Positions 1-7,583 are shown, counted from the first letter of the stretch. The stretch is 64,000 nucleotides of DNA from Luteibaculum oceani (GCF_007995015.1 NZ_VORB01000001.1:248001-312000), one strand, 5' to 3'. Notes: generated by a model from the letters alone, not told the origin. Program-made: numbers and translations.

Positions 1-2
1 TT

Positions 3-368
3 GGTGATCTTGCATATATGGAAACTCCGAAATATCCCAAAGGGCACCCACAACTAGCCAATGTGGCAATTAATCAAGCCCTTCTACTTGCCGAAAATCT
101 TAAAAAGAGACGGTTAGGAAAAAAACAAAAAGACTACGAGTACAAGGATCTTGGATCAATGGCTACAATTGGTAGAAACAAGGCTGTTGTAGATCTGCCG
201 TTTTTCAGATTTAACGGTTTTTTCGCATGGATAATTTGGATGTTTTTACATCTCATGCTCATCCTAACGGTACGAAACAAACTCATAATCTTTATTAACT
301 GGACTATTGCCTATTTCTCTAGAAATACCGCTTTGCGAATAATTCTAAAGGACCCATCCAAACCTTAA
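3..368 (+). CDS. ndh: Type II NADH dehydrogenase (NDH-2), C-terminal fragment
   Basis: This is the 3' part of a gene that enters from the left. The frame is open from base 3 and reads GDLAYME before the first internal ATG. NDH-2 is a single-subunit FAD enzyme that passes electrons from NADH to quinone at the cytoplasmic membrane face without pumping protons. The visible part begins at the GD-x-A FAD-binding motif, continues through the HPQLANVA stretch (the usual HPQxAxxA of the family), and ends with the ATIGR motif and a hydrophobic membrane-anchoring tail. It is convergent with the RiPP operon: its TAA and the neighbour's stop share the four bases TTAA at 365-368. A more general pyridine nucleotide-disulfide oxidoreductase is the only real alternative. 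Confidence 0.88.
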   Translation, partial: GDLAYMETPKYPKGHPQLANVAINQALLLAENLKKRRLGKKQKDYEYKDLGSMATIGRNKAVVDLPFFRFNGFFAWIIWMFLHLMLILTVRNKLIIFINWTIAYFSRNTALRIILKDPSKP

Positions 369-1363
369 CCAATTTGATCCAGAGTCTTTGATATCAAATG
401 TGCCAAATACGCCTCGTCCTTATTCTGAACTCCTATTCGGTTATTGGTCATGTGGACAAAACTCGAATACAAAGCCCATAAAGCAGCCTCTTCGGTATCT
501 ACCTGAATGCCCTTTACGGTTCTTATCCAACCTGGATCTTGTAATTCGCCATTTTTCTGTGCAGTTTGGAGCTTTTCTTTGGTCTCCCTACTCAATGTGT
601 ACCACTGAATCATATATGGCTCCAAAATGTCTTCAAACTCCTCCTCGGAAGCATTCCATAGGGTATTAATAAAAGGAATCAATTGATCCTTTTGTAACGC
701 GAATTGATCATCAAATGCCTTTACTATTCGATCGCGTTCCTTTTTCTGCTCATCTGTACTTAGCGCGTTCCAGTTTTCTGAGGCCCTTGGATACCAAGAC
801 AAAAACACAAAATGTAAAAACAACTGCGCCCGTTCTTTATCGAATCCTACCGCCCTCAAAAACAAAACATGTTGCTGGATGGAGCTGGTTAAACTATCGG
901 TGTAGGACCAATCGATATCTTCCTCTATTATCGATAAGCAAGTTCTAGAGCAATTCATAAACTGATCCTCGCAAATTGGTAGTGTTGCGGGGCCACCATA
1001 CCTTGCTGTTTCTGGTTCATAAGCAATCCACTGCAAGGAATTATTAGGGTACCAATCGGCACTTATTTTGGCCAAATCTTCGGGTTTCATCCCGTAGAAG
1101 GAGAAATCTGATGGGTTTTGTGTGCAGTAGGAGTAAAAGTCATTCTCTAATTTTTTAGATAGTCCCGAAAATCTATTATCCGAAACTTTAAATCTAAACC
1201 GAACATGAGGCCCCCTTTCCCAATATCGAATGAAAAAGTAAGGCTCTACACCCTCCTCGATATGGTTTTTTATCCAAGGAAATAGAAATTCCCGCATCAT
1301 TGTTTCCCATGGCTCGCCATAATATAAATGTGCTGCTCTCCACTTCGCGTTATCCTTACTCAT
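365..1363 (-). CDS. SpaB_C-type protein: thiopeptide/lantibiotic dehydratase C-terminal (elimination-type) domain as a free protein
   Basis: A 332-residue stand-alone member of the SpaB_C / thiopeptide-type bacteriocin biosynthesis family. In full-length LanB enzymes this domain removes glutamate from glutamylated Ser/Thr to give dehydroamino acids. In thiopeptide pathways free copies do the elimination step, or have become pyridine-forming [4+2] cyclases. The N-terminus shows the family signature: a WRAAHLYY start (residues 8-15) and FFIRYWERGPHVRFRF (residues 43-58) with Arg46, Arg50, His53, Arg55 and Arg57. Its start overlaps the end of the LanB N-domain gene by 8 nt, so the two are probably translationally coupled and act together. 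Whether it eliminates or cyclises cannot be told from sequence alone. The family call is firm; the exact chemistry is inference. Confidence 0.85.
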   Translation of the reverse strand: MSKDNAKWRAAHLYYGEPWETMMREFLFPWIKNHIEEGVEPYFFIRYWERGPHVRFRFKVSDNRFSGLSKKLENDFYSYCTQNPSDFSFYGMKPEDLAKISADWYPNNSLQWIAYEPETARYGGPATLPICEDQFMNCSRTCLSIIEEDIDWSYTDSLTSSIQQHVLFLRAVGFDKERAQLFLHFVFLSWYPRASENWNALSTDEQKKERDRIVKAFDDQFALQKDQLIPFINTLWNASEEEFEDILEPYMIQWYTLSRETKEKLQTAQKNGELQDPGWIRTVKGIQVDTEEAALWALYSSFVHMTNNRIGVQNKDEAYLAHLISKTLDQIG

Positions 1364-4103
1364 ACCACTGCATCATTAATTCGGTTACAAATCTACCTTC
1401 TTTGGTGGCTATCATTTCACCGGCGTTGGGTTTCATTTCAGAAATGGCCAACTGTATAGGCACCTTACTCAATAACTTTTTAAACAAATTACAAACCATA
1501 GGTAGTTGCCTAAAGTCCAAATATTGCGGCTTATAAGCATCTCTACCGATTTCTTTTACTACCTCGTAATCTAGAGTTTCTAACTCCTGGTGATTGGTTA
1601 TTTTAATAAACACTTCGTCGGGTAGCCGCAGCCTATTCTTCCAGTCTATAATGGCTTTGTAACATTCCGCTTCACCCCAGTGATTCGGTAATTCTGGAAG
1701 TTGATCTTTGGGGATTTTCCAAGATCGCCTATTCACACATACCGTGTCGTCTAACCAAACTTCTGGTTTCGGCTCCCCTTCTGGAATTGGATATACTTCA
1801 GAGAGCATTTCAAAAAGTGGATTTAGGCCTAGCATTTCGGCATCGGTAAATCGGGTTAAGAGTTGGTACAACTCCGATCTCCCTTTGTGCCCCTGAAAAC
1901 CTAAATCGAACAAACTTACCTCCTTATTTCGTTGGGAGTGTACCAATTTCAAGCCGCCCTCTGAATTGGGTGCTACAAGTAAATCGGTTACAGATATTTG
2001 CTGTTTGGGTTCTAAGGTATTGTGCCCTCCCGGTGTATTTATCTCGTATGGCATTAACGGTGGATGCAGATTGGCGTTAAAGTAAGATGCGTCGGTATTT
2101 TCCACATAAATCTTATTGCCTTCACCACTGGTATTTGCCTGAATTAAAGCCTCGGTAAGCTCAGATGGGAAAAGGTGCAAAAATCGACTGAACATCTTTC
2201 CATAACCCGGAAACATGCTATTCACCACCCCTTTTATCTTCTTATCGTCGTGATAAGGCTGGATAAACATGGCCATTGAAAAGGTTTTATCCTTTACATC
2301 CGCCGTATTAAGCCCCTCCGTATTTATATTAATTTTCCCATGCTCTAATTCGCTATTTTGCTTGAGCCATTCTACCAAAGCTGCCTTTGCTTTTTCTCTC
2401 TTTTTCGCGGTTTTTTCTGCCTTGTATTTTAGTTCTGGCGGCTTGGCATCTTTGTTTTTCTTTCGCTCCTCCTTAAACTGCTCCATTGCCTTGTGCTCGG
2501 GAACTTTCACATCGCGATAATATTGCTCATAAAACTCTAGCAGTGAAACCGGACCTTCTCCGAATTTTTCCTCGAAAAATGCAGCCATTCGCTCTTGCTC
2601 CGGTTCAAATCCCTCAAAATTTCTTAAGGCATGGCAAAGCCTACGCACAGGAGCCACGAGTGCTTGTGCATCATCATTACCAAGAGTAACATCGGCATTA
2701 GCCTCTACATCTTCGTATAAGAATTGCTCCTGCCTAAAATGAAAATAGGTGGTACTGGTATGTTTAAAAGGGGGGGAATCTGATTCTTCTTCCTTATTAT
2801 CTTCTTTTTCCTTCTTTTCTTGCTCGGCCTTAATTTTAGCTGCACGCTCATCAGCGTCCAAACGCTCGTCTTCCGGAAGCCCAGCCAACTCATGTAATTT
2901 TAGACAACGACCTTTGAATGCCTCAAAAGCTAACTTAAGCTCCTTGTATCGCTTCTCTGCTTGAATTTCACTAAAAGATTCCGCAAAAATTCGAGCTTCT
3001 ATCAATGCTTCTTTAGCAATATCTACAGCGGGTGTTTCAATATTCAACCCAGATAACCAAGTCACCAATTTTTTATCCCAGAACGGGTCTATTCCACTAA
3101 TTCCAAAATCCCACTCTAATAAACCGTAAGAAAATAGGCTTTGGATAAAACCTCTTAGCTCATCAGGGCCAGCATCTACGTACTCACCCTCTACAAGCTT
3201 AGCTATGGCATCACCCAAGGCTAATCCGTCAGGATATTCCTTACCAAAAAAGTCTGTAAACAATTCAATTAATGGGTTCTCCTCAATACGCTGAAAAGCT
3301 TCCACATTGTTGTTATTGGTTAGGTATAAAATCTGTCCATTGGTATACGTAACCGTTGGATTTAACCTAACATTTACACGGTCTGCTATCTCTGGTATCT
3401 CGACTAAAACAGATTTAAAAAAGCTGAGTAGATGATTGTTGAGCGTGGAATTTCCTTTTCCCATCCCATTTTTTTCCGCTATAAACCCTTCTCCATCCAC
3501 TTTTCCCATTGCCAGCTGGGTGAAAAAACTAAATGGAGAAGTTTTGGCGCTAGTACGCGTAAGGTATTTAAGGATGCTCTCCTCGGCTTTTAATTCCTTT
3601 TTTCTAAACGAGTCGGCTGGTCGTTTTACAATGCGCTCCAGGTTCGCAAGTAGAATATGACTGGATAGTGAAATTCCCAATTTCAGTGGCTCAGATGCAA
3701 CAGCTTTTTTTACACCTTCTCTTGCCTGTGCCATTTCGCCTGGAAAACTGCTTACATACGCTTCTTCAGCCTTTATCAATTTCTCTTGCGTGGCAATGTA
3801 CTGTCTGATTTTTCCTGCGGTTTTGTCGGAAATATGATCTATAGCGACAGGTAGCCCAATGTTTCTACCATTAAAAACACTGCGTTTTACATTGAGCAAT
3901 TCTTTCTGCAATTCCTCTTGTTCCAATGTTCCAATTTCTTCAAAAAGATCATCGGATATCTCCTTACCCAACTTCTCAATTTCCTGACTTAAAGCAGATA
4001 AATTTTCCGCTTTGGCATAGGCCTCGGGACGAGAAAGTTGTTCTAGTATTTCTATGGGTTCCCCACCAATTCTGGTAAGAAAATAAGGGAAAATGGTTGA
4101 CAT
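1356..4103 (-). CDS. Lantibiotic dehydratase (LanB) N-terminal, glutamylation-type protein
   Basis: A 915-residue Lant_dehydr_N protein. In class I lanthipeptide and thiopeptide pathways this module uses glutamyl-tRNA to glutamylate Ser/Thr of a precursor peptide in the cytoplasm. Visible family marks are RTSAKTSPFSFFTQLAMG at residues 183-200 (the conserved R-x-SPF-x-F block), PGYGKMFSRFL near 632-642, and the C-terminal PQYLDFRQLP near 859-868. The elimination domain is missing here and is encoded by the next gene, so this is a split dehydratase. Two very charged Lys/Glu-rich segments (about residues 405-445 and 540-580) look like insertions compared with NisB-type proteins. The start lies 5 nt behind the HlyD stop. 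No tRNA-binding or active-site residue was assigned by alignment. Confidence 0.88.
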   Translation of the reverse strand: MSTIFPYFLTRIGGEPIEILEQLSRPEAYAKAENLSALSQEIEKLGKEISDDLFEEIGTLEQEELQKELLNVKRSVFNGRNIGLPVAIDHISDKTAGKIRQYIATQEKLIKAEEAYVSSFPGEMAQAREGVKKAVASEPLKLGISLSSHILLANLERIVKRPADSFRKKELKAEESILKYLTRTSAKTSPFSFFTQLAMGKVDGEGFIAEKNGMGKGNSTLNNHLLSFFKSVLVEIPEIADRVNVRLNPTVTYTNGQILYLTNNNNVEAFQRIEENPLIELFTDFFGKEYPDGLALGDAIAKLVEGEYVDAGPDELRGFIQSLFSYGLLEWDFGISGIDPFWDKKLVTWLSGLNIETPAVDIAKEALIEARIFAESFSEIQAEKRYKELKLAFEAFKGRCLKLHELAGLPEDERLDADERAAKIKAEQEKKEKEDNKEEESDSPPFKHTSTTYFHFRQEQFLYEDVEANADVTLGNDDAQALVAPVRRLCHALRNFEGFEPEQERMAAFFEEKFGEGPVSLLEFYEQYYRDVKVPEHKAMEQFKEERKKNKDAKPPELKYKAEKTAKKREKAKAALVEWLKQNSELEHGKININTEGLNTADVKDKTFSMAMFIQPYHDDKKIKGVVNSMFPGYGKMFSRFLHLFPSELTEALIQANTSGEGNKIYVENTDASYFNANLHPPLMPYEINTPGGHNTLEPKQQISVTDLLVAPNSEGGLKLVHSQRNKEVSLFDLGFQGHKGRSELYQLLTRFTDAEMLGLNPLFEMLSEVYPIPEGEPKPEVWLDDTVCVNRRSWKIPKDQLPELPNHWGEAECYKAIIDWKNRLRLPDEVFIKITNHQELETLDYEVVKEIGRDAYKPQYLDFRQLPMVCNLFKKLLSKVPIQLAISEMKPNAGEMIATKEGRFVTELMMQWYE

Positions 4104-4108
4104 GGTAA

Positions 4109-5404
4109 TTAGTTTTTTACTACCGATCGTAGCTCGTTAAAGATTCGATCGAAAAGGCTCAATTCTTTGGTTAAAATTTCTCCGGTTCCCAGCATTTCTT
4201 GTCGGAATGCCAGCTCCACATTATAGGTAGTCTTTAGCCCCTCTGGTAGGGCAATTAAAAGTCGGTATACATTGTTGTTTGGAAGTGCGGTAATTTGTTC
4301 CACCCTACCAATTAACATCCCGTATTCTTTGTAAGGATAACTCTGTAGTTTAATATTAACTTTCTGCCCTACCTGAATTTTTCCAGCTCCTACTAGCGGT
4401 ACTTCGGCCCAAACCTGGATGTTTTTATTCTGGGAAATGATGGCAAAAACCTGTTCTCCAGCGGCGACTAAATCATTATCACTAAAAAACCTGTAGTAGG
4501 ATAGCAGTCCATCGTTGGGCGCAACAAGTGCATAATTGTAAAACCACTCATTTATAGCTACCTCCAAATAGGAAAGCGATTGGTATAGATTAGATCTAAT
4601 TGCGAGTAGTTGCTCACCTAAATTCTGTTCAAAATCCAAGAGCAATTTGTTGTACTCCTCGGTTTGAATTTGATTATTAATAAGGGTGAGATCCAAATCA
4701 TCGACCTGACGTTGCTTACCCAGATAAATTGCAGATTTATTTTCAAACTCTGATTGAGAAATCACCCCCTGCTCAAACAGTTTCTGATTTCGTTCGAAAT
4801 CTTGAGCAGCCAAATTTAGCTCCTTGATTATAGCTCTTTTCTGCCTGTTTAATTTGTCGTTTAACGCTTTCAGTGACTTTAATTGTGCCTGAATATTTTC
4901 AATTTTTCTATCGGTGTACTTATCTCTGATCTTATAAACCGCCTCTCTGTAATCCTCGGCAAAGCGCAAATAAGCAGATTGAGCCGAACCTAAAAGTAAC
5001 TGGGGCAATAAAGGATTTATGAGCGAGTCCACCGAAGTATTTCGGATAGAATCGGCAATAAAGCGCGCTTTTAAAATATCTTCCGTTATGGCCGGATTTT
5101 CAATAACCGCAAGCACTTGGCCCTTGCTTACTTTAACGTTATTATTAACCCTAATTTTTATTCTCCCGCCACTTTTGGCAACAATTTTTGCCGCTGGTGT
5201 TGTGCTTTGTACCACCACTTTGGCTGGAATAATTTCGGGATAGCGAATAAAGTAGGACCCTACCAACATTAAAATAATGGTGGCCGCAATAATCGTACTT
5301 CCCCAGCGCACCAAAACGTGAGGAACATAACTGAGAATTTCGTGCACCTGTTCGCTGTGCAACTCCTCGTTAATCTCCGGTATATTTTGCTGATTATCAG
5401 GCAT
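4109..5404 (-). CDS. HlyD-family periplasmic adaptor (membrane fusion) protein
   Basis: This 431-residue protein is the likely adaptor linking the ABC exporter encoded just upstream to the outer membrane. It has a short cytoplasmic N-terminus, one membrane helix (about residues 33-51), a biotinyl-lipoyl-like half (PAAKIVAKSGGRIKIRV and KVSKGQVLAVIENP, about 70-108), a long coiled-coil hairpin (about 140-260), then the second lipoyl half (APNDGLLSYY) and the beta-barrel (VGQKVNIKLQSYP). Its start overlaps the ABC gene's stop by 8 nt, and the LanB gene follows after 5 nt. It therefore belongs to the RiPP export operon. No dedicated TolC-type outer membrane gene is present nearby, so a chromosomal one is presumably used. 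Confidence 0.9.
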   Translation of the reverse strand: MPDNQQNIPEINEELHSEQVHEILSYVPHVLVRWGSTIIAATIILMLVGSYFIRYPEIIPAKVVVQSTTPAAKIVAKSGGRIKIRVNNNVKVSKGQVLAVIENPAITEDILKARFIADSIRNTSVDSLINPLLPQLLLGSAQSAYLRFAEDYREAVYKIRDKYTDRKIENIQAQLKSLKALNDKLNRQKRAIIKELNLAAQDFERNQKLFEQGVISQSEFENKSAIYLGKQRQVDDLDLTLINNQIQTEEYNKLLLDFEQNLGEQLLAIRSNLYQSLSYLEVAINEWFYNYALVAPNDGLLSYYRFFSDNDLVAAGEQVFAIISQNKNIQVWAEVPLVGAGKIQVGQKVNIKLQSYPYKEYGMLIGRVEQITALPNNNVYRLLIALPEGLKTTYNVELAFRQEMLGTGEILTKELSLFDRIFNELRSVVKN

Positions 5405-7583
5405 CTAATTCCAATTGATTTTTAACTAGGTTAAAGTAATAACCCTGTTTTGCGACTAATTCTTTATGGGTACCGATTTCCATAATCTTGCCCTTATCCA
5501 TAACAACAATCTGATCGGCATTTTTAACGGTACTTAATCGGTGTGCAACCACTATAGCCGTTTTCCCTTTAAAGAATTCATCGAGCTTTTGCATAATTAC
5601 ACGCTCATTCTTTGCATCCAGGGCATTTGTGGCCTCATCGAAATAAATGAACTGAGGATTTTTATAGGCTGCTCTGGCAATTAATATTCTTTGCTTTTGC
5701 CCTTGACTTAAACCAACTCCTTCTTGTCCAACCTTTGTATTATAACCAAGCGGCAACTGCTCTATAACATCGCGTATATTGGCAATTTCACTCGCTTCCT
5801 TCACGCGATTAAAGTCCATGAGTTCGTCGCTAATAGCTATGTTGTGAGCAATGGTATCAGAAAAAATAAATCCATCCTGCATTACCACCCCACAATTACG
5901 TCTCCACTCAGCGTTATCAATATTATCAAGGCGGGCATCTCCTACCCAAACCTCACCCTGCTCAACAGGGTAAAATTTCAAAAGCAGTTTTAAAAGGGTC
6001 GTTTTCCCACTTCCACTCATCCCCACTATTGCTGTTGTTTTTCCAGCTGGAATAGTGAGCGAAATATCCTCTAAAACCCAGGGTGAATTCCTTCCGCCAT
6101 ATCTGAAGAACACCCGATCTAGACGAATATCTGCAGATCTATCCACATGCATTAGCTGATCTCCTGAAGGTCTGGTTTCTTCCTCTAAATCATGGATTTC
6201 ACCCATACGCTCCAAACTAATTTTTGCGTCTTGCGCACTTTGGATAAAGCCGATGAATTGGTTTATAGGCCCATCCAACTGCCCTAAAATATAGGTGATG
6301 GCCAACATCATACCCAGCGTTAGTTCTCCTTCTAGAACAAGCTTTGCTGCAATAAATGTGATGAGTATATTCTTTAACTCATTGATAAAGGAAGCCCCCG
6401 CAGTTTGATACTGGTTAAGGGATAAACTCTTTACAGAAAGCTTAAATAATAATGCTTGGATATGCTCCCACTCCCAACGCTTTTGCTTTTCGCAATTGTT
6501 CAGTTTAATCTCTGGCATCCCAACAATAAGCTGATACAGGGAGTTTTGATTATTACTCAACTCGGCAAAGCGCTTATTATCTAGTTCTCGGCGTTTTTTC
6601 ATGAAGAGAACCACCCAAATCACGTAAAGACTGGTGCCAGCCAAAAACAATCCAAAAATGGTACTGCTATAAATGAGTAACACCACCCCAAAAACAATAA
6701 AATTTAAAAAAGAGAAGAGGATGGTTAAACTGTTACCCGTTAAAAAGGCAGAGATTCTTTGATGGTCTCCAATGCGTTGCATGATGTCCCCAATCATTTT
6801 CTGATTGAAAAATGAAATGGGCAGTTTCATCAATTTAATAAGAAAATCGGAAAGGATGTTGATGTTAATTCGGGTACCGAGATGCAGTAATATCCAACTG
6901 CGAATTACCTCAACCGATGTCCTACTGATAAACAACATCATTTGGGCAGCCAAAACCGTGTATATAAATCCTAGATTTTGATTAGCGATTCCTTGATCTA
7001 CTAAAGCCTGTGTAAGGAAAGGGAAAATTAATTGTAGTAAAGAACCGACCAATAATCCAAGAAATACCTGGATGACAAACTTTTTGTATTGCCAGAGGTA
7101 GCCCAACAGAAAACCAAAGCCTTTGTAGCTAACCTTATCGTCTTCCTCTTCATAAAATGCCGGTGAAGGCTCCATAAGAAGGACAATTCCCTCCTCGTTG
7201 GCATTGGCCTTCCACCCTCTTAAAAATTCCTCTTTAGTAAACTTAATAATCCCTTTGTCTGGATCGGCCACATGTACCTTCCCCTTGCGGTAGTCGTACA
7301 CTACAATAAAGTGGTTTTGCTGCCAATGGGCAATTAGCGGCATAGGGGCCTCTTCCACCATTTTATCAAAGGGAATTTTGGCAGATAGGGTTCTAAATCC
7401 AAGGGATTCGGCGGCATCGGAAATTCCTAACAAGGAGACACCATCTCTTCCGATTGAAGATCGCTCTCTAAGTTTTTGAAGGGAAAAACGCTTCCCATAA
7501 TATTTGGCAATCATCCGAATACAAGTTGGACCACAATCCATGGTGTCCAATTGCTTGTAGTGGGGAAATGATTTTATTCGCAT
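5397..7583 (-). CDS. Peptidase C39-containing ABC exporter (leader-cleaving bacteriocin/RiPP transporter)
   Basis: A 728-residue three-domain exporter that should cut a double-glycine-type leader and export the peptide. The N-terminal C39 protease has its active-site set in place: Gln11, Cys17 (in TMDCGPTC), His91 (in QQNHFIVVY) and Asp107 (in ADPDKG). A six-helix membrane domain follows (about 160-440), then the ATPase with Walker A GMSGSGKTT, signature LSQGQKQR, Walker B IYFDEATNALD and the switch His in VVAHRLS. A start 14 codons further upstream (7625) is possible, but MRIKSFPHYKQ fits the usual C39 N-terminus, so 7583 is chosen. It is the first gene of the operon. The intact triad implies a precursor with a GG/GA leader, but none was found alongside. 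Confidence 0.93.
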   Translation of the reverse strand: MRIKSFPHYKQLDTMDCGPTCIRMIAKYYGKRFSLQKLRERSSIGRDGVSLLGISDAAESLGFRTLSAKIPFDKMVEEAPMPLIAHWQQNHFIVVYDYRKGKVHVADPDKGIIKFTKEEFLRGWKANANEEGIVLLMEPSPAFYEEEDDKVSYKGFGFLLGYLWQYKKFVIQVFLGLLVGSLLQLIFPFLTQALVDQGIANQNLGFIYTVLAAQMMLFISRTSVEVIRSWILLHLGTRININILSDFLIKLMKLPISFFNQKMIGDIMQRIGDHQRISAFLTGNSLTILFSFLNFIVFGVVLLIYSSTIFGLFLAGTSLYVIWVVLFMKKRRELDNKRFAELSNNQNSLYQLIVGMPEIKLNNCEKQKRWEWEHIQALLFKLSVKSLSLNQYQTAGASFINELKNILITFIAAKLVLEGELTLGMMLAITYILGQLDGPINQFIGFIQSAQDAKISLERMGEIHDLEEETRPSGDQLMHVDRSADIRLDRVFFRYGGRNSPWVLEDISLTIPAGKTTAIVGMSGSGKTTLLKLLLKFYPVEQGEVWVGDARLDNIDNAEWRRNCGVVMQDGFIFSDTIAHNIAISDELMDFNRVKEASEIANIRDVIEQLPLGYNTKVGQEGVGLSQGQKQRILIARAAYKNPQFIYFDEATNALDAKNERVIMQKLDEFFKGKTAIVVAHRLSTVKNADQIVVMDKGKIMEIGTHKELVAKQGYYFNLVKNQLELDA

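Follow-up and report, generated by a model that had tools for sequence, protein, structure and literature searches.

The four-gene operon at the left end of the window is very probably the enzyme-and-export half of a complete class I lanthipeptide system of the pinensin type, with a split LanB and, as its most likely output, about 17 ringed products. The window is the whole analysed stretch of 64,000 nucleotides of Luteibaculum oceani (G000:C1:248001-312000), from a draft genome of 2.92 Mb in 42 contigs that is 99.93% complete. The rest of the system lies beyond its edge: LanC and a tandem run of 16 precursor genes are found 1.0-6.2 kb to the left, and a further precursor gene stands on another contig (Table 1). 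The system is ordinary in kind and unusual in number, with 17 precursors for one enzyme set, a feature not visible from the window. Positions in the surrounding locus, L003 (C1:240001-257000), become window coordinates when 8000 is subtracted.

Table 1. Features of the putative lanthipeptide system and its surroundings. Locations given as bare numbers are window coordinates; the others are contig coordinates.
Feature	Location	Strand	Description
LanC, whole gene	C1:241785-243617 (left of window base 1)	-	610 aa
Precursor array, A1-A16	C1:243817-247004 (ends ~1 kb before window base 1)	+	16 tandem small genes, NF038180
17th precursor, A17 (orphan)	C11:22392-22628		alone, flanked by two large frames of other kinds on the minus strand
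NDH-II-like NADH dehydrogenase, 3' end	1..368	+	whole protein 419 aa, PF07992 3.5e-40, PF22366
Free glutamate-elimination lyase (LanB C-terminal part, SpaB_C type)	365..1363	-	332 aa, PF14028 1.1e-41
LanB glutamyl-transfer part	1356..4103	-	915 aa, PF04738 1.5e-27
HlyD-type adaptor of exporter	4109..5404	-	431 aa, TIGR01843 8.3e-29, under curated cut-off
C39 peptidase ABC exporter	5397..7583	-	728 aa, PF03412 2.6e-34, PF00664, PF00005

Gene calls and profile matches, which establish the identities of the genes, bear out the four consecutive minus-strand genes at 365-7583 described in the initial annotation, with junctions, as claimed, of an 8-nt overlap, a 5-nt gap and a second 8-nt overlap that couples the HlyD adaptor to the exporter. 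Its reading of them as a RiPP operon was right, and so was the split LanB, with PF04738 and PF14028 on separate, overlapping genes. The comparison that it drew with the pinensins also held. Its statement that LanC, YcaO and a precursor were all missing was correct for YcaO, which a search found nowhere in the genome, but not for the other two; 'no precursor, no cyclase' was true inside the window alone, because the window edge falls short of LanC and the array. The wider search that it proposed recovered 17 precursors and one LanC in the genome, and among relatives genome G1082 keeps its precursors beside the exporter, HlyD, LanB and lyase. With LanC and the precursors found, the basis has gone for the suggested linear dehydropeptide, thiopeptide-like macrocycle or product cyclised by an unlinked enzyme. 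The idea of an undescribed system with neither precursor nor cyclase was wrong: this is a complete pinensin-type class I set, and what the annotation had named as evidence against its own idea, adjacent precursors and LanC or placement in a known family, applies both in this genome and in G1082.

Genome-wide searches found a single copy of each modification enzyme: one PF04738 protein, one PF14028 protein and one LanC. The LanB part has matches in PDB 6ec7 and 9jhq, which are likewise glutamyl transferases separate from a lyase. Alignment identifies the catalytic residues of the lyase, with Arg55, Glu118, Arg121 and His304 falling on NisB Arg784, Glu823, Arg826 and His961 (numbered as in the PDB chain in the alignment). 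An Arg at the 826 position and a His base are marks of anti-eliminating lyases (PMC9486935), and the lyase, having both, is therefore expected to give ordinary (Z)-Dhb and Dha.

The only LanC match in the genome search is at C1:242349-243470 (PF05147, 5.9e-55), about 4.5 kb left of the window. From left to right the region holds a TraB/PrgY/gumN family gene (-), LanC (-), the 16 precursors (+), the NDH-II-like gene (+) and the operon (-), so that a single gene, the NDH-II-like one, separates array from operon. The best NCBIfam match of this LanC is the LanM model TIGR03897 and its best PDB match is LicM2; a closest relationship to LanM cyclase domains is also reported for the LanCs of family I 17, the precursor family to which pinensin belongs (PMC7268733). 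The zinc-ligand motifs WCHG and LCHG, which give Cys, Cys and His, are kept in all five aligned relatives. LanC residues ~425-610 (L003:1785-2342, -) form a C-terminal extension that is also present in the five relatives, weakly conserved over several hundred bases, and has no Pfam family match; we considered it as a possible leader-binding part. The TraB/PrgY/gumN gene (L003:923-1783, -; C1:240923-241783; PF01963 2.4e-58) starts 1 nt past the stop codon of LanC, with which it may share a transcript. It was not seen next to LanC in G1082 or at G831:C10. We identified neither an immunity nor a regulator gene next to the cluster. Matches in a scan for sigma-70 promoters were fewer than in shuffled sequence, a result that says little for this organism.

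The precursors are tied together by their leaders. All 17 pass the NF038180 model leader_pinensin ('pinensin family lanthipeptide'), scoring 31.7-44.5 bits against a curated cut-off of 24. A1-A16 each start M[KNG]KK[LV] and have SFVT around residue 14, and the pattern common to the precursors is MKKKLxLxxxxVxSFVT. Mean identity is 67% over the first 18 residues and 28% in the cores, shuffled cores giving 21%. Leaders contain no Cys; cores contain 2-6 Cys and 4-12 Ser/Thr. Five precursors end their leader in GQG, GKG, GLG or GQR rather than a plain GG, and their cleavage is therefore less sure. The cores fall into three loose types, whose motif groups were picked after viewing the sequences: C[FL]TGxYP in A1-A3; [ST]Cx(2-3)Y[VIM][ST]Cx4C in A7-A15, found in none of 2000 shuffled sets; and A5, A6 and A17, which group with cores of G1082. 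Only the between-genome comparison is free of that bias, and in it FxSAYDACxTxRGCT is common to the A5 core and one G1082 core, a score reached by none of 300 shuffles of both sets.

Substitution patterns suggest that this diversity is of long standing. For codons 1-18, pS is 0.71 against a pN of 0.23, a comparison that demonstrates purifying selection on the leaders. The ten core pairs closest to each other likewise have a lower pN than pS, and all 17 reading frames are intact. The copies are thus old and apparently maintained by selection. A recent expansion of the array was rejected, synonymous sites being near saturation, and diversifying selection on the cores is unsupported by those ten pairs.

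Gaps between the array genes run from -8 to +24 nt, except that A1 is followed by 40 nt and A4 by 63 nt. Within the gap after A4 lies a hairpin of 13 pairs with a T run behind it (L003:4589-4617, +; -14.8 kcal/mol, z -4.7), and a hairpin of the same kind follows A16 (-19.2 kcal/mol, z -5.5). We read both as putative terminators because of their fold strength and position, not their count, as the four terminator-like patterns in the region are no more than chance (3.6 expected). This suggests that the array forms two transcription units, A1-A4 and A5-A16. The hairpin after A4 may grade precursor expression.

These parts can be placed in a single proposed pathway. The 16-gene array and at least one distant gene would supply the precursors. 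LanB, probably held by the shared leader, would glutamylate Ser and Thr of the core, and the separate lyase would eliminate the glutamate to give Dha and Dhb, to which LanC would add core Cys, closing lanthionine rings. The exporter, which over residues 6-721 aligns with the C39-containing bacteriocin transporter PDB 4ry2 (4.8e-114), is predicted to remove the leader and secrete the product; together with HlyD it would cut behind the GG-type leader end. The most likely result is a mixed set of some 17 peptides with thioether rings, which supposes that all the precursors are substrates of one promiscuous enzyme set.

Among 399 sampled genomes of the order, this one alone has the leader family, and in the class sample 7 of 395 genomes match, six of them over the cut-off. 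Six-frame genome searches found a close lyase homologue (31-40% identity) in three class genomes besides this one; neither the lyase nor LanB found relatives in genome_contigs, nor did LanB in viral_contigs. G1082 has the exporter, HlyD, LanB, lyase, four tandem precursors and LanC all together. In G816, LanB and the lyase are on C23 and LanC is on C10, while the 12 precursors over the cut-off are spread over eight contigs (C1, C4, C5, C6, C7, C10, C13 and C24), with none on C23. In G831 the seven precursors are spread over six contigs; an exporter/HlyD pair lies ~6 kb from one lyase, and a second lyase adjoins a precursor and LanC (C10). Precursors are thus mostly unlinked to the enzymes in G816 and G831, compared with one of 17 here (on C11), although, these being draft genomes, linkage may be greater than contig membership shows. 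A dispersed layout is sensible only for enzymes that work on leaders in trans, and so lends support to leader-driven tolerance in this genome as well.

The relatives have features of their own. The second G831 lyase (C10, L044:9538-10515, -) keeps the His and has Leu in place of NisB Arg826, a residue that marks syn-eliminating lyases (PMC9486935); it lies near LanC, a precursor and a luciferase-like oxidoreductase. Several of the scattered G816 precursors (C4, C6, C10, C13 and C24) have long cores of ~90-100 aa with common stretches such as SAVVSATTA and ASALVGTLTAVPTAQPATPG, whereas the cores here are short. In G1082 C1 (L043:14651-18260, +) an MvdD-type ATP-grasp ligase gene (PF21068), a second similar gene and a C39-VKOR-thioredoxin fusion come after the lanthipeptide cluster and may form a graspetide neighbourhood.

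The reading that most needs weighing against a set of about 17 products is that few of the precursors are true substrates, the rest being decayed or unexpressed, so that the locus is an ordinary pinensin-like cluster with leftovers. Against it, every frame is intact despite near-saturated synonymous sites, and non-synonymous change lags behind in the leaders and in the closest core pairs. The low similarity between core types (28%, shuffled 21%) fits leftovers better, as does the strong hairpin and T run after A4, which could silence the later genes. An A5-type core held in common with G1082 again speaks against leftovers. We therefore think this explanation unlikely, though it is the most serious of those considered.

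Two others are much weaker. If the array and operon were unrelated neighbours and the precursors served another enzyme, the intervening NDH-II gene would be explained, and A16 does weakly match a radical-SAM target model (E 0.75, below cut-off). All the precursors, however, score well on the pinensin leader model, LanC directly adjoins the array, the same leader accompanies LanB, lyase and LanC in G1082 and a lyase with LanC at G831:C10, and no other sampled genome of the order has the leader family; such a coincidence is very improbable. Still less credible is a thiopeptide-like or other non-lanthionine product, with the free SpaB_C-type protein as a cycloaddition enzyme and not a glutamate lyase. 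The protein does exceed the cut-off of TIGR03891, 'thiopeptide-type bacteriocin biosynthesis protein', but its match to the pyridine-synthase (TbtD/PbtD) equivalog is weak, 47.6 bits against a cut-off of 325. As the sole PF14028 protein in the genome it must serve elimination, and it keeps the two Arg and the His of NisB. The YcaO and second PF14028 protein, as pyridine synthase, that mark a thiopeptide system are both absent, and LanC is present. On these grounds we set aside the thiopeptide reading and that of a linear dehydropeptide, and keep to a pinensin-type lanthipeptide system.

The pinensin cluster of Chitinophaga pinensis (BGC0001392) consists of pinA, the split pinB1/pinB2, pinC and pinT (gene list in PMC10112250). 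The present system resembles it in its NF038180 leader, split dehydratase, transporter and LanC, which is LanM-like as in family I 17 (PMC7268733). All the pinensin-type class I sequence features that we looked for were found: the leader model, the split LanB, a LanM-related LanC in the locus and the lyase Arg and His. Pinensin-type perception/import and separate export genes (PMC10112250) were not identified beside this operon. Unlike pinensin, the system here has 16 tandem precursors and a distant one.

The use of one enzyme set on many substrates is best known from the class II synthetases of marine cyanobacteria, and is the basis of their use for peptide libraries. The system described here is like the prochlorosins and synechococsins (class II, ProcM/SyncM) in having one enzyme set, many precursors, a conserved leader and a variable core, and in having precursors unlinked to the enzymes; prochlorosin and synechococsin precursors may stand in tandem groups of as many as 16 or be scattered (PMC10783134). 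It is not a prochlorosin system proper. Prochlorosin-type LanM is a class II enzyme with a CCC zinc site (PMC11251773) and acts with Nif11-type leaders, whereas here we find a split LanB with LanC, CCH-type motifs and a pinensin-type leader.

Large class I clusters have been described. A survey of more than 100,000 genomes, its search limited to seven genes from LanC, names 10 precursors as the largest, and the Tumebacillus flagellatus cluster has 10 distinct ones (PMC7268733); likened by description, this cluster also has many precursors, though fewer than here and in another phylum. PedA15.2 of Pedobacter lusitanus NL19 is, like the present precursors, from a Bacteroidota class I system and has a GG-type leader, removable by the C39 protease LahT150 (PMC12328550). 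In the literature that we searched we found no class I multi-precursor system in Bacteroidota, the primary work on Pedobacter lusitanus (Caetano 2020; Bothwell 2021) lying outside that search. We keep our claim of novelty modest because those systems may show similar multiplicity.

It is an evenly balanced question whether this is the class I counterpart of the prochlorosins, in which, in one lineage of the class, a single split LanB together with a LanM-like LanC would serve in trans a large number of hypervariable precursors, arrayed here and dispersed singly or in pairs in relatives. Surveys restricted to the neighbourhood of LanC miss dispersed class I precursors. A class I set handling about 17 cores here, 12 in G816 and seven in G831 would be a second, separate case of one enzyme set with many substrates. 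Natural combinatorial synthesis of lanthipeptides would in that case have a separate origin, based on glutamyl-transfer enzymes and lacking a CCC zinc site, and a class I case would allow promiscuity to be tied to the type of zinc site, the leader or the split dehydratase.
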